NCBI RefSeq assembly: GCF_004353525.1
Contig: NZ_CP085524.1
Coordinates: 2,018,142 to 2,082,141 of the forward strand
DNA: 64,000 bases
Direction of reading: 5' to 3'
From: Zhaonella formicivorans
GTDB taxonomy: Bacteria; Bacillota; DUOV01; Zhaonellaceae
The notes beneath the pieces are model-generated. The model had not been told where the DNA came from. It ran no database searches and saw nothing but the letters and a program-made list of their open reading frames with translations. Position 1 is the stretch's first letter. Each line of letters begins with the position of its first letter. This document shows, piece by piece, positions 12,736-60,913 of the stretch. Made by a program: the position numbers and the translations under genes.

Positions 12736-13713
12736 TTATAGAGCAGAGGCTTCTGATTCAAGCTGCTTGGGCAAGATGCCCCGGCTCTTTTGCCAGCGGT
12801 CCACCATTACCACCAAAAGAGGACAAAGGATTGCCGTGGTGATAGTGGAAGCAGCTACCTGGGCCGTAGCAATACCGGCAATCGCGGCATAGGATGGGTC
12901 TACCGCAGCAATGGCGGCAGGAGTAGCTACAGCATTTCCGGCAGTAGAAGCCTCAGCAGCTCCGGCAATTACATTCTTTTCCCCGGTCAAACGGAGGAAA
13001 AACATACCGCCAAAGCCGGTAAGAACTGCGGTCATCACACCCAGCAGTATTCCTGGGAAACCAGCTTGAAAGACGGTTGCAAAATCTAAACCAGCTCCTA
13101 AAGCAAAGGCAAAAAAAGGAATGAGTAAACGTTCCCCTTGCGCCAAAAATTTACGCATTTCTTCGTCCAGGTTACCCAGAATCATACCTATAGCAATTGG
13201 CACCAATACCGCTACAAAAGCCATAAAGGGGATATTGGCCAAGCCGGAAGCGCCTAATGCCATCATGGTGAAGAAGGGACCGTCATTCAAAGATAAAATA
13301 GACACGGCTCCTACGTCAGTACTGTCGCCATATTCCCCAGTCAAAGCTACATACATGCCTCCGTTGGAGTTGGTCATACCGGCAATAATTGCTAATGGCA
13401 CTAACCCGAACAGTCCGTTTGGACCCATAAATTTGGCAACACCCAACCCGATAGCTACCCCAATTGCATATTTGGATAAAGTGATGACCACACCTTTTTT
13501 CAGGGCTTTAGGAGCTGCCGAAAAGCGCAGCTGGGCGCCCATACAAAAGAGGAACAATCCGATTAGGGGTAATGCGCCTTTCTTGAAGAGGGCAGTGGTA
13601 AATCCCCCGATTTCCAGAGAGGCTGGCGCCACAGTGTTAATTAACGCCCCCAACAAGAGCGGCACAACCATCATTCCGCCTGGAACCCGTTCAATGGCTT
13701 GCTTTATCTTCAT
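12736..13713 (-). CDS. kdgT: 2-keto-3-deoxygluconate permease family transporter
   Basis: A 325-residue inner-membrane transporter of the KDGT family, with about ten hydrophobic segments and the family start [25 protein letters not shown]. KdgT homologues carry sugar acids by cation symport. Located among tetronate genes, its substrate here is more likely the four-carbon acid, or a precursor handled by the UxaA-like proteins, than KDG itself: no KDG kinase or aldolase is adjacent. Confidence 0.9.
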
Positions 13714-17611: not shown

Positions 17612-17710
17612 GACAGAGTAGGTATGCCGCGTTAAGTGCCAAAGGGATGGGAAGTTGCCCTTGGACGAAAAACAATTATTTGTTTGCGGTGGTATACTGC
17701 GTCCGCTGTC
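17612..17710 (+). promoter_or_regulatory. Tetrahydrofolate (THF) riboswitch
   Basis: The segment follows the THF aptamer plan. P1 is GACAG/CTGTC. GAGTAGGTATGCCGCGTTAAG resembles the conserved 5' block. P3 is CCAAAGGG/CCCTTGG around ATGGGAAGTTG. The 3' block is GCGGTGGTATACTGCGTCCGCT. It lies about 120 bp upstream of a FolT-type transporter, the commonest THF riboswitch target. The expression platform is probably translational; no clear terminator is seen before the gene. Confidence 0.85.
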
Positions 17711-29770: not shown

Positions 29771-30171
29771 GCTTCCGCTACCTCCCTTTTTGATAACTAG
29801 GTGATTTACCAAAGAGCTCTGGTTCCTGATCCGCCGCCCTCACCCCTTTCCTGTAAAAAACCTCCAGCCGAAGTAAAGTTTTGCACTGGTACTTTAACCC
29901 AACTGTACAGGGATACGAAATGTATAAATATATTATTCAAAACTTCTTGAATAACCTTGGTAAAATAATCGCATAAATTTTTTAAAAAATTACAATAAAA
30001 AGATTATTCTGATGTTGCCCTGCAAAATATACCCAGTCTTATTTTCATGTAGTACAAAAGTTGCATCCGATTTTTTAATCCCTGTAAAAATTTGCAAAAA
30101 AAAGGAGGAAAAAAGGTAGTATTGTAGAATAAAATAATAATTTCAAATACATAAACTATAAAACTCCAAGG
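29771..30171. other. AT-rich gene-free spacer between divergent units
   Basis: No gene seen. It must contain the liv promoter (minus strand) and the promoter of the riboswitch-controlled chemoreceptor (plus strand); a small hairpin (ATTCAA/TTGAAT, about 29935-29954) lies in it. No box is clear enough to assign. Confidence 0.4.
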
Positions 30172-30252
30172 ATAAAGGCAAACTACTCCGAAAGGGTAGG
30201 GCGCAAAGCCATGGGTCTAAAGCCATAAGCTATGATTGCCAGGTTGCCCGGT
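30172..30252 (+). promoter_or_regulatory. Cyclic di-GMP-I (GEMM) riboswitch
   Basis: The aptamer shows the class I pattern: GGCAAAC and GGTTGCC form P1; one arm carries the GAAA tetraloop (CTACTCC GAAA GGGTAG), followed by GGCGCAAAGCC; the second arm contains GGGTCTAAAGCC. It is followed at once by a terminator hairpin and then a chemoreceptor gene. Chemotaxis and motility genes are standard c-di-GMP-I targets. Confidence 0.92.
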
Positions 30253-35162: not shown

Positions 35163-35249
35163 CCTCCGGGAGAGCTAATGAAATTTGCGCCTGAAAATTC
35201 ATTGGGCTCCTGGTGAAACAAAAAGTCAAACCTTTTTGTTTCTGTCACA

Positions 35250-35418
35250 CTCTGTCCTTTTGCCTGAGAGAATTAATCCTTCGGCGCCCGCCAGCTGCAG
35301 GTCTCTCCAGAGGTTCGTCCCGGATTGGTAATTCATCACCCGGAGGTGAAACCTGAGAGATTCAGGCTGACGCCTTTGCCCCTTCGGTTGGCATCCCGTA
35401 TACCATCTTCCAATCCGT
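35250..35418 (-). promoter_or_regulatory. Tandem glycine riboswitch
   Basis: Two aptamers in series on the minus strand. Aptamer 1: GGATTGG...CCAATCC as P1 with ACCGAAGGGGCAAAGG and CTCTCAGG. Aptamer 2: GGACGAACCTCTGGAGAG, GCGCCGAAGG and CTCTCAGGCAAAAGGACAGAG. These are the diagnostic blocks of the glycine riboswitch. Usual targets are gcv genes or glycine/alanine symporters; none follows here. Confidence 0.93.
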
Positions 35419-48238: not shown

Positions 48239-48544
48239 TTATCTTTCAAAAATAATTTTGCCTACCCGTTCTATATGCTCTTTTAGCTCTGTATGGGTTA
48301 AATGGGAGTAATCCACAATGTCGAAAAAATATGGCATAGGGCTTTCCTCCTCAAGTATTGCATGTAGCCTTGATAACGTATCAAAGGTAATGCCATCACC
48401 AAAAATTGCTATATCAACATCGGAGCCAGGCTTGTAATTCCCTTTAGCTCTAGAACCAAAGATCACCGCTTTTTTTATTTCGTTAAACTGTCCAATGGCA
48501 GAAACAATAAAAACCATATCCTCTTTTGTTAGTCCAAAACTCAT
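48239..48544 (-). CDS. MNT-type minimal nucleotidyltransferase (antitoxin-like)
   Basis: A 101-residue nucleotidyltransferase: IFGSRAKGNYKPGSDVDIAIFG holds the GS and DxD motifs for metal and NTP binding. It overlaps the HEPN gene by 4 bp. In characterised HEPN/MNT pairs the MNT protein AMPylates and silences the HEPN toxin. Confidence 0.88.
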   Translation of the reverse strand: MSFGLTKEDMVFIVSAIGQFNEIKKAVIFGSRAKGNYKPGSDVDIAIFGDGITFDTLSRLHAILEEESPMPYFFDIVDYSHLTHTELKEHIERVGKIIFER

Positions 48545-48936
48545 TTTAGACCCTCCAAAGTGGCACTCAGTTCTTTCAGCATCGGATAGTATTTTTTGCG
48601 AATAAGTTTTTCAGCCTCTTTCGCCAAATTTTCATTATAGGTATGGGCCATTAGATTTCTTTTTTGCAGTGCATCAATCCATACATGCCCGTCTTTAATT
48701 AATTGGATCTGAAAAGCAGTTTGTATGGCAGATCGTGGACTTTTCACATCAAAGCCCTGTTCGTTAAGATAATCTTTCAGCGTTTTCCAGGCGAGCTCAA
48801 AAGTATACTCAAAGCACTTGATTAATCCCTGAAGTTCAAATTTGTTCAACTCAGGTTTTTCGATAAATTCGGTTAACTGCGTAATAGCTTTTTTGTAACT
48901 GGAAAACCTTTGTTTCCAACGTATATCAACACTCAT
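48541..48936 (-). CDS. HEPN-domain protein (HI0074/'nucleotidyltransferase substrate-binding' type)
   Basis: A 131-residue all-helical HEPN protein. SYKKAITQLTEFIEKPELNKFELQGLIKCFEYTFELAWKTLKDYL matches the HI0074 family, and RNLMAHTYNE is the Rx4-6H RNase motif (R-N-x3-H). It probably forms a toxin-antitoxin module with the downstream MNT gene. Confidence 0.88.
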   Translation of the reverse strand: MSVDIRWKQRFSSYKKAITQLTEFIEKPELNKFELQGLIKCFEYTFELAWKTLKDYLNEQGFDVKSPRSAIQTAFQIQLIKDGHVWIDALQKRNLMAHTYNENLAKEAEKLIRKKYYPMLKELSATLEGLK

Positions 48937-49094: not shown

Positions 49095-49180
49095 TTTCCC
49101 TGCAATAAAAACAAAAAAAAACACCCAATCCGGGTGTTATTAGTTAAGTATGGTGGAGGCAAGGAGAGTCGAACTCCTGG
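49095..49180 (-). repeat. Displaced copy of tmRNA 3' end and terminator (att-like)
   Basis: Minus strand 49180-49151 reads CCAGGAGTTCGACTCTCCT then TGCCTCCACCA: a tmRNA T-arm and acceptor 3' strand without the intron. Similarity to the real ssrA 3' flank continues through the terminator (AACACCC..TTGGGTGTTTTT) to TGCAGGG at about 49100. It abuts the TAA of the ABC permease gene. It probably marks the far end of DNA integrated at ssrA, and now terminates the ABC operon. Confidence 0.78.
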
Positions 49181-56442: not shown

Positions 56443-56657
56443 TGGCAAATTTCCTTTAACATGAAATTTTAAAGCGAAATACTATAAGGTACTATAAAGT
56501 TTCATGAGGAACTAAAAAAGTATTTTAGCTTTTTGCCTTTAAGATAAGGTTAAAGGTTAATTAGACTTATTTTCGTGTTATTACGCGAAAATCCCTGCAT
56601 ATAACAAAATCCTTTATTTTGAAACTTTCACAATACTGCTTTTTTGAGACACAAAAA

Positions 56658-56702
56658 AAACACCCATATTCAGGTGTTTCCAGCTTAAGTATGGTGGAGG
56701 CG
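56658..56702 (-). repeat. Second tmRNA 3'-end fragment with terminator
   Basis: Minus strand 56702-56692 is CGCCTCCACCA, followed by TACTTAAG as in the 49-kb fragment, then the hairpin ACACCTGAATATGGGTGT and TTTTTTTT. The T-arm is missing. Together with the copy at 49151 it suggests two successive integration or rearrangement events at ssrA. Confidence 0.65.
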
Positions 56703-56835
56703 AACCGAATTAATAATATATATGGGCTGACCCCCTAAAATTAGAGAATATCAACTTGATTCTTTCTCACTAATAGTGAAGCTATAATTTTCTACCTAAT
56801 GGTAAATAATACCATACAATAGTTTTAAAACGACT

Positions 56836-58057: not shown

Positions 58058-58222
58058 TTATTCTTTTTCTTTACGCAGAAGGCCTCCTACTTCGCAATCA
58101 AATAAAACACACAACTTATATATCGTCTCAAAATCAATCCTTGTCGCATTGTCATTATATAAATTGGAGATTGTATTTCTCGAAAGCCCCGTTTTCTCAT
58201 GTACGTCTTTAATTGAGTAGCG
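58058..58222 (-). pseudogene. Cro/CI-type HTH regulator fragment
   Basis: Open frame of 54 codons without a start: RYSIKDVHEKTGLSRNTISNL, then RIDFETIYKLCVLFDCEVGGLL. This is the C-terminal two thirds of a small XRE-family protein (HTH_26 type). A stop precedes it at 58223, and the LAGLIDADG gene ends 31 bp upstream. Probably truncated by the arrival of the endonuclease gene. Confidence 0.6.
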
Positions 58223-58253
58223 TCAACTTCCCATAAGCGTAGACAAATTACTG

Positions 58254-59351
58254 TTAATAGGCATTGATACCACGCTCCTCCATCTGAGCACGTAAAGCAA
58301 ATATCTTAGCAATTCCTTCCTCAGTCAAATGCCTTTTAACTCTAATAAGGTTAGCAATTTCCTTATAGATGGCAAAATCTTTCCGTTTTTTAGCCCTCAA
58401 AGGATAACGATCAAAGAACGGAATGATCCTATTAATATTATCTTTAAAGCTTTGCACTGAATAGACATAGGCCTTTTCAGCTTTGTTGTAATATATATTC
58501 CCACAGCCAAAATAATTTTTTAGAGTAGTTAACAGTTTCAAGTTAATTGCAGCTAATGTAACAGTGAAATGAAGTTTAACCCTAATTCCTGCCTTATAGT
58601 TAGAATCACGTGAAATTATTACCGAAAAGCAACCTTCACCATCTACAAGCCCTGAAACATAATGGCCACTATAAATATGTGGCTTGCCCTGAACTACCAC
58701 ATTTACTTGACTCATTCCCTCGCCAATATCCAGTTTCTTCCTTGATTTATTGCCGCCATTATTCATACTCGTTCTTTTTTGGTAAATCATTCTAGCGATA
58801 TCAGCAGAATCACTATTCAAATATAAAGCTAGACATTCCTTGAATATCTCATAATCCAGCAACTTAGATGACTTTAATTTAAACTTATCAAAGAATGGAA
58901 TAACAACTTCATTCAACTCCGCTAAACTCTGCACTATAAAACGGCAGGCATCCTGAGCATTGTCTTCCTTTCGCTTTACGTAATGGATCCTGCCACATAG
59001 TAGCGCATTTTGAATCAACTTTAAAATTTCGTCATCAGCCTTGGTTAATTCAAGTTTAAAAGTAAATCTTACTTGAGTTCTATAGCTTTGGTTTTCCTTA
59101 GAAGCAAATGAAATAATAAAAGAACCTTCTCCATCAACAAGACCTGAAATATAATGCCCAAAATCATCGCTGATTTCTAAAGTTTTTCCTTGAGAACTTA
59201 ATAAATTTTTCTTCCAAACTTTATTGCGGATCATGTTGCCAAAGGCAGCACTACATTTTCGGGAACAAAAACGCCCATTTCCTCGATTAAGTTCCTTTTT
59301 TATAACTAAGAATTCTTTACCACAATTTTGACAAGTCGTTAATACTTGCAA
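58254..59351 (-). CDS. LAGLIDADG homing endonuclease with N-terminal zinc-finger-like motif
   Basis: A 365-residue double-motif LAGLIDADG protein: ISGLVDGEGSFII at about 68-80 and VSGLVDGEGCFSVI at about 232-245, each starting a similar ~140-residue half, so it should act as a monomer. The N-terminus has CQNCG...FCSRKC (residues 7-33), a four-cysteine finger. TTG start at 59351, with GAGGTGA seven bases upstream. It lies 115 bp beyond the 3' end of the intron-bearing tmRNA gene, same strand, and is outside the intron. Confidence 0.9.
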   Translation of the reverse strand: MQVLTTCQNCGKEFLVIKKELNRGNGRFCSRKCSAAFGNMIRNKVWKKNLLSSQGKTLEISDDFGHYISGLVDGEGSFIISFASKENQSYRTQVRFTFKLELTKADDEILKLIQNALLCGRIHYVKRKEDNAQDACRFIVQSLAELNEVVIPFFDKFKLKSSKLLDYEIFKECLALYLNSDSADIARMIYQKRTSMNNGGNKSRKKLDIGEGMSQVNVVVQGKPHIYSGHYVSGLVDGEGCFSVIISRDSNYKAGIRVKLHFTVTLAAINLKLLTTLKNYFGCGNIYYNKAEKAYVYSVQSFKDNINRIIPFFDRYPLRAKKRKDFAIYKEIANLIRVKRHLTEEGIAKIFALRAQMEERGINAY

Positions 59352-59430
59352 CTAGAATCACCTCAACCCGTCCAAAACGATCATATGTTCTATTTCTACG
59401 CTTTTGAGTATTTCCCCTGCAACAAAACAT

Positions 59431-59454
59431 AAAAACACCCAATAATTGGGTGTT
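59431..59454 (-). terminator. tmRNA terminator
   Basis: Minus-strand stem AACACCCA/TGGGTGTT with six-base loop ATTATT's neighbours, then TTTTTATG; 12 nt after the tmRNA CCA end. Confidence 0.85.
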
Positions 59455-59465
59455 ATAAATAAATT

Positions 59466-60063
59466 TGGTGGAGGCGAGGAGACACGTGATCCGGCACTTT
59501 CGTACCGGCGCTGACTATATCTTGGACTTGCAGTGCAAGCCCCCTGGCGTGTTATGCGTATTTAACGCATCCTAGTACTGCCACTAGCGTGGCAGCCTAT
59601 GAGTCGATACGCGGCTGTTGGGTTACCCCACATACCACTCGGTATTAGCACCGCCATTACGCGCTGAGCCTTCACCGATAAAGCCAGGTTTTCACCTGCA
59701 CGTCACCGTGCAGGGCGACCTATATTCTTGATCGAACTCCTGTCCGAAGGAGCACCCACAAGAGCTTCTACCAGGATAGTTCCTGTTCTAGGATTCGCCG
59801 CCGGAGCTCCCAGGAACAGGATCTCGCTTAGGCTAGCCCGCTTAAGTTTCCCCTAAATCCAGCAGGCGGTCGATTCAGGGTATCCCGCTAGTCGTCCCCC
59901 TATCCTACACCGCGGGAGCAGTAGGTAGGAGGTTAACTGCAATTAAGCAGCTAAAGCGTAATTTTCGTTTGCGTTTAATTTAAGGTCCACCGTATTACGG
60001 GCTGATGGAACCCCGCCTGGCTACTCCTGCCAATACATCCCCCGTCGAAACCAGTACGCCCCC
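59466..60063 (-). ncRNA. ssrA: tmRNA (ssrA), interrupted by a group I intron
   Basis: Transfer-messenger RNA for trans-translation. The 5' end GGGGGCG (60063-60057) pairs with CGCCTCC (59478-59472 region) to form a 7-bp acceptor, ending CCACCA at 59466. TGGTTTCGACGGGGG follows the 5' end. The tag frame at 59972-59943 encodes ANENYALAA and stops. The mature length without the intron is 350 nt, normal. The CCA is encoded. A TATAAT at 60153-60148 is a likely -10, implying a 5' leader removed by RNase P. smpB is just upstream. Confidence 0.95.
59483..59730 (-). other. Group I intron in the tmRNA T-loop
   Basis: The T-arm AGGAGTTCGAT (exon) is interrupted; the partner TCTCCTCGCC resumes 248 nt later. 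Joining them gives the perfect stem-loop AGGAG-TTCGATT-CTCCT. The exon ends in T and the insertion ends in G, as group I splicing requires (U before the 5' site, terminal omega-G). Near its 3' end it contains CCAAGATATAGTC, the hallmark S/P7 sequence AAGAUAUAGUC, with a partner ATCGACTCATAG upstream. It encodes no protein. Confidence 0.88.
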
Positions 60064-60256: not shown

Positions 60257-60727
60257 TCACTCACGATTTTTATCTCTAATCGCTCTGGCAATTTCCCTGT
60301 TGGCATCCCGGGCGGCCATGTCTTCCCTTTTATCGTACAGCTTTTTACCTCTGGCAAGAGCCAGTTCCAGCTTTGCTTTGCCCCGCGGGTTAAAGTACAC
60401 TTTGAGCGGCACCAGGGTCAAACCTTTTTCTCTGGTTTTACCGATCAGCCTTCTGATTTCGCTTTTGTGCAGCAAAAGCTTTCTGCTCCTCTTGGGATCG
60501 TGATTGAAGCGATTACCCTGCTCATAAGGGCTGATGTGCATGTTATAGAGAAAAACTTCGTTGTTTTCTACCCGCGCAAAACTGTCCTGCAAGTTGGCTC
60601 TTCCTGCCCGGAGGGACTTTACTTCCGTCCCGGTTAAAGCTATTCCGGCTTCATAAGTTTCCTCTATGAAATAATCATGCCGGGCTTTGCGGTTTTCAGT
60701 TACCACCTTGATCTTTTTTTCCGCCAT
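60257..60727 (-). CDS. smpB: SsrA-binding protein SmpB
   Basis: A 156-residue Smp[75 protein letters not shown] and a basic C-terminal tail [13 protein letters not shown]. It binds tmRNA and replaces codon-anticodon contacts on stalled ribosomes. ATG at 60727 with GGAGGC upstream; the longer frame has no support. ssrA follows by about 190 bp. Confidence 0.95.
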
Positions 60728-60913
60728 CGAGACGCCTCCATTAAAAAACAAACCCTTTGATTTGGACTCTTCCAAAGCGCAGGGTGATGTGTCAATACTC
60801 GTATAGCTTTTTTATTATACCAGAGTCAAAGCAAAAGTCAAGAGCTAGTATCGCCCCTATACGATCTCCCGGATAACCATAATTTATTTGCACGGCAAAT
60901 GCAAGCGCGCTGC

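Follow-up and report, generated by a model that had tools for sequence, protein, structure and literature searches.

How does a group I intron that carries no reading frame of its own come to occupy a tmRNA gene, and what has an endonuclease gene lying just behind that gene to do with it? We addressed this at the ssrA locus of Zhaonella formicivorans, in a 64,000-nucleotide stretch (hereafter the window) that is part of a complete 3.31-Mb genome. The intron-form tmRNA is already known from Bacillota-type hosts, its group I intron being inserted in the T-loop, preceded by U at position -1 and ending in G; in 36 of 883 cases, endonuclease genes lie inside the intron (PMC11915505). Also known is collaborative homing in phages, in which an ORF-less or defunct intron is accompanied by a separate endonuclease gene nearby, as with the psbA endonuclease of cyanophages and T4 mobE with the nrdB intron (PMC3984707, PMC2988022). 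Judged from sequence, our data favor collaborative homing, in trans, as the likely explanation for an RNA gene on a bacterial chromosome. The features on which the argument turns are the following.

59731-60063, minus strand: ssrA (tmRNA) exon 1, ending in the T-loop with GTTCGAT (RF00023; boundary by comparison, 5' end by eye from the acceptor stem)
59483-59730, minus strand: ORF-less group I intron, 248 nt (17-sequence alignment; fold z-score -5.0)
59466-59482, minus strand: ssrA exon 2, with the remainder of the T-arm, acceptor strand and CCA (sequence comparison)
59431-59454, minus strand: probable intrinsic terminator of ssrA, an inverted repeat followed by a T run (read from the sequence)
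58254-59351, minus strand: two-motif LAGLIDADG homing endonuclease gene with an N-terminal Cys4 motif, 365 aa (ORF, Pfam, phmmer)
58058-58264, minus strand: broken HTH gene of the Cro/C1 type, interrupted by a single in-frame TGA, its start overlapping the endonuclease stop
about 56640-56704 (also given as 56692), minus strand: decayed displaced ssrA 3' end, with acceptor strand, CCA and terminator
49103-49180, minus strand: displaced intron-less ssrA 3' end, with a T-arm whose loop has C, acceptor strand, CCA and terminator

On the minus strand, smpB (60257-60775) is accompanied by ssrA, which Rfam matches to tmRNA (RF00023, minus strand, E 1.3e-53) up to 59729, inside the T-arm. ARAGORN, run on the window, reported no tmRNA; the intron is presumably the reason. 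Comparison placed the intron boundaries at GTTCGAT / CAAGAA...CACGTG / TCTCCTCGCCTCCACCA, with T at -1 and G as the last base, and in the ORF list no frame of at least 60 aa overlaps the intron. Alignment with 16 other ssrA introns yielded 64 consensus pairs, 41 of them with compensated changes; all 17 measure 240-346 nt, follow a T at -1 and end in G. T precedes the intron in 17/17 cases, whereas it occupies that place in 14/50 intron-less loops, a bias such as short co-conversion or a splicing need would give. The window thus matches the intron-form tmRNA, as described in PMC11915505, in its T-loop site (position 7, a number taken indirectly from that text), U at -1 and final G, and splicing would be predicted to restore the T-loop. 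In the cases of that report the endonuclease gene sits inside the intron, whereas here it stands outside, behind exon 2. Close relatives of the intron are those of G001 (93%) and G002 (86.5%). Discordant identities suggested horizontal transfer of the intron; we make no such claim because the exons are statistically compatible with the grouping of the introns (p-AU 0.278), and the trees give no sign of such transfer.

The reading frame at 58254-59351 is intact and opens with a TTG 114 nt beyond exon 2. Its product has GLVDGEG at residues 70 and 234, so that both LAGLIDADG motifs and their acidic residues are kept, and the Cys4 motif consists of CQNC at 7 and CSRKC at 29. Pfam LAGLIDADG_1 matches over two stretches (E 3.2e-49), phmmer finds I-PanMI (E 8.8e-50), and Foldseek points to the I-OnuI / I-SmaMI / I-PanMI type (E 3.5e-21), although the weak query model (pLDDT 66.9, pTM 0.42) supports the fold class only. 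Two motifs in one chain, together with the sequence match, make the protein a single-chain LAGLIDADG enzyme of the I-OnuI type; it shares two-motif fold and sequence with I-OnuI, I-SmaMI and I-PanMI but differs from them in its additional N-terminal Cys4 segment, which resembles in sequence the repeated Cys4 motifs of viral proteins L002-L004. Since the endonuclease ORF lies outside the intron, this is not a composite mobile group I intron. Phage and plasmid relatives of the protein are distant matches only, in two records each. LAGLIDADG matches are numerous in two Peribacillus 'plasmid' records, L038, which carries no annotation, and NZ_CP110134.1 (8 and 3 places).

Downstream of the endonuclease gene lie a 260-aa ORF for a Mutator-type transposase, without the N-terminal part of its family, a sensor kinase with a response regulator, and transporter-like ORFs, the last named by eye. 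The T-arm at 49151 is far above chance (the next unrelated match reaches only 14/21), has no ssrA bases to the left of its T-stem, and continues through the acceptor stem and CCA to a terminator resembling that of ssrA. A third ssrA 3' end, which the sequence-only reading had overlooked, lies at 56640-56704; its alignment with the 49-kb copy scores 40, whereas 200 shuffles reached no more than 19.5. Repeats resembling the ssrA terminator thus follow both displaced copies. The ORF-less intron, the two-motif gene with its Cys4 finger just past the exon and the intron-less T-arm of that reading are all real. The suggestion that the 49-kb T-arm might be an escaped target does not stand: what lies there is an ssrA end that was displaced, and its loop C cannot be taken for an escape mutation because C is the commonest natural base at that position (found in 34 of the 50 loops that could be read in the 57 intron-less controls). 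Just past this end, at 48239-48936, is a gene pair for a Polbeta nucleotidyltransferase and an NTase_sub_bind protein. Elsewhere in the window, riboswitch matches exceed their curated cut-offs at 17612-17710 (THF), 30168-30252 (c-di-GMP-I-GGC) and 35242-35320 (glycine).

Relatives of the window gene are rare. A single-sequence search of 101 related genomes returned the window genome itself and no other. A first scan of genome contigs gave no match to this family (family 1); a second found only a Thermincola ferriacetica MAG (BM5_bin.18; G210, L041) at full length, plus one Cys4-only match, and would have missed members with another N-terminus because its patterns came from the Cys4 region alone. 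With a profile built from the window gene and the Thermincola relative, family 1 was found in 2 of 398 genomes of the phylum, these same two, both times right behind an intron-bearing ssrA; within the order of the Thermincola MAG it occurs in 1 of 10 genomes. The two proteins are 35% identical over 363 aa, and the Thermincola protein keeps all four cysteines and both motifs. Its gene starts some 95-118 nt past exon 2, depending on the choice of start codon.

The Thermincola locus also shows what surrounds such a unit. The stop of its endonuclease gene is followed, six bases on, by CGACTCTTCTCACCTCTACCA and a repeat resembling a terminator; this sequence is the right-hand half of a T-arm that has no intron (17-18 of 21 positions; best unrelated match 15). 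Intron, exon 2 and gene therefore lie between exon 1 and the displaced old 3' end. This recalls the mitochondrial cob and atp6 genes of fungi, in which, according to PMC6279837, the gene is followed by endonuclease ORFs and then by a duplicated C-terminal gene end; those are protein genes, whereas the Thermincola case concerns an RNA gene and has the intron within the moved unit. Altogether, seven ssrA 3' ends are spread over the contig (L025) from 4.7 to 14.9 kb, in one orientation and with genes between them. Copy 1 is ssrA itself, and copy 2 is a decayed end that begins near the tag region. Their introns are identical over 241 nt, and the upstream flanks match at 63/79 aligned positions. 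The flank of copy 2 and its exon 2 (CACCTTCACCA) resemble the intron-less copy 3; the base before the intron is T in copy 2, and C stands at that place in copy 3. No LAGLIDADG gene adjoins copy 2. On this comparison, copy 2 seems to have received the intron by itself, plus a few flanking bases, in a recent copying event, although other conversion routes are conceivable; the pattern is what repair at a nearby break would give and fits movement in trans. Another of these 3' ends, at 13078, is followed by a remnant resembling the start of the endonuclease gene.

A second family points to the same place. Two intron loci (L030/G340 and L032/G222) have a short LAGLIDADG ORF behind exon 2, with a single motif and convergent to ssrA, and the profile built from these two ORFs (family 2) matched 8 of the 398 phylum genomes, as well as 3/20, 3/22, 2/21 and 4/46 genomes in smaller, partly overlapping groups, 13 genomes in total. 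Apart from G406, whose match lies at a contig end, all 12 placeable genomes have the gene or its remnant downstream of ssrA, convergent and within 3.2 kb, and in 10 of the 12 it lies within about 310 bp. The gene is intact in G340, G222, G008 and G414, all with an intron in ssrA; it is broken beside an intron-bearing ssrA in G193, G404, G433 and G434, and broken with an intron-less main ssrA in G172, G120, G246 and G358. G172 also holds, 6 kb downstream of its intron-less ssrA, an ssrA copy truncated at its 5' side but still with the intron (L101, G172:C22), as if an intron-bearing end had been displaced. In G008, a second family-2 remnant follows ssrA at a distance of about 6.5 kb. The family-2 gene of G414 is separated from its intron-bearing ssrA by two tRNA genes (L115 1282-1443). 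In G185 (L027 5500-6900), a 185-aa ORF without a Pfam match separates the intron-bearing ssrA from a decayed ssrA end that likewise has an intron.

Whether gene and intron go together was asked from both sides. Starting from ssrA, a LAGLIDADG ORF lies within about 4 kb downstream at 4/14 intron-bearing and 1/57 intron-less loci (p 0.0045; p 0.019 without the window; lineage ignored in both). The 57 intron-less controls (L043-L099) are full-length ssrA matches among those listed, on the minus strand and with room downstream. By the family-2 profile the controls rise to 2/57 (L072 and a short remnant in L052, G246) and the intron loci to 5/14 with L031 (G193). Starting from the gene in the 398-genome sample, the main ssrA has an intron in 3 of 7 genomes, the seeds G000, G340 and G222 being left out, against at least 15/398 overall (p 0.0017; p 0.006 against an assumed background of 6%; lineage ignored in both); the 15 are 14 genomes plus G008, and G172 has its intron only in the displaced copy. 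Over both families, intact genes adjoin an intron-bearing ssrA in 6/6 cases, four of them found by starting from intron loci, and broken ones in 4/8 (Fisher p 0.07, lineage ignored); this p had been 0.03 until two broken genes at intron-bearing ssrA were added, and the value of 0.07 holds. In this survey, of the kind that the sequence-only reading called for, intron and gene are not independent (family 1 in 2/398, family 2 in 12/12). That reading is thus supported in part: the linkage speaks for collaborative homing, whereas the supposed escape of the 49-kb T-arm does not hold. Most introns, conversely, have no intact gene nearby; the intron therefore persists without the gene.

These observations suggest that intron and endonuclease gene, two selfish elements, spread as a pair. 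We consider it probable that a LAGLIDADG homing endonuclease settled at the ssrA 3' flank targets the uninterrupted T-arm. The enzyme would cut intron-less ssrA at the T-arm, the very site that the ORF-less intron occupies, and the cell would repair the cut gene on the template of an allele that has the intron, exon 2 and the linked endonuclease gene, whereby both would spread; the intron would splice out of the tmRNA precursor and would shield its donor from the donor's own enzyme. Anatomy, intron structure, the intact enzyme, the recurrence in two families and the identical Thermincola introns form the computed basis of this explanation; cleavage, target site and direction of movement we infer. 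As in the phage systems, a group I intron without an endonuclease ORF has a separate, free-standing endonuclease gene close by, here linked to intron-bearing ssrA; unlike them, where phage protein genes are involved and cleavage was demonstrated, the present case is a bacterial chromosomal RNA gene with putative LAGLIDADG endonucleases. The two placements, same-strand and convergent, at one short RNA-gene end that harbors an ORF-less intron fit collaborative homing as those papers review it. One would expect an active gene to be self-destructive where the T-loop is open; none of the six intact genes stands beside an intron-less main ssrA. Uncut intron-less T-arm copies nevertheless coexist with intact genes, at 49151 in the window and four times in Thermincola, which speaks against a very active enzyme; it is therefore dormant, weak, or in need of more than the T-arm.

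The linkage could also arise if the gene were a plain free-standing homing element of ssrA that cuts the end or flank of the gene for its own spread, the intron being a tenant helped by nearness only. Family 2 does lie outside the RNA and convergent to it, and remnants stand beside intron-less ssrA in 4/12 genomes (G172, G120, G246, G358), yet all six intact genes adjoin introns and the Thermincola intron was apparently copied without the gene; we regard this account as unlikely. The displaced ends raise a different thought, that the gene is cargo of integrase-driven genomic islands and the ends are attachment-site scars. Such ends occur in the window (56692 and 49151, as direct repeats), G210, G185 and G172, and ssrA is a known island target (PMC11915505). 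Against it, two LAGLIDADG families are tied to the intron, and no tyrosine integrase is linked to ssrA in the genomes examined: a search for PF00589 found none on the ssrA contigs of G210, G185, G111 and G172 and none within 500 kb of ssrA in the window genome. A simple integrase island is rejected on that absence, and the cargo account in general seems to us very unlikely.

Nor need the protein cut DNA at all, since it could be a maturase that aids the splicing of the intron in trans and has lost its cleavage activity. Some intron-encoded LAGLIDADG proteins act as maturases (PMC6279837), and intact genes are found only beside intron-bearing ssrA; but both LAGLIDADG motifs are retained, and G001 and G002, with close relatives of the intron, have no family-1 gene anywhere in their genomes by profile search. 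Because their introns exist without the gene, splicing should not need the protein, and a maturase role is very improbable. Collaborative homing itself may be extended: breaks by ssrA-specific LAGLIDADG enzymes might not only spread the intron but also build cassette arrays without an integrase, a proposal that we hold to be quite unlikely. Each repair would copy intron, fresh exon 2 and terminator, endonuclease gene and sometimes neighbors, and would push the old ssrA 3' end downstream. If true, this would account for the cluster of seven 3' ends of ssrA that Thermincola has in about 10 kb, for both displaced ends of the window, and for the endonuclease gene that directly abuts half of an uninterrupted T-arm.

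Among the literature matches listed, no title or abstract opening mentioned free-standing endonuclease genes beside ssrA, subscription papers lying mostly outside that search. The question is directly testable, since sequenced genomes offer natural sites with and without the intron, filled and empty. It bears on the piling up of ssrA 3' ends in arrays without a linked tyrosine integrase. If true, collaborative homing could help to answer how tmRNA introns spread even though few hold an endonuclease gene (36/883 in PMC11915505). Confirmed cleavage would make this a case of collaborative homing in bacterial chromosomes, located at the tmRNA gene, and two LAGLIDADG families would have been recruited to one short target.
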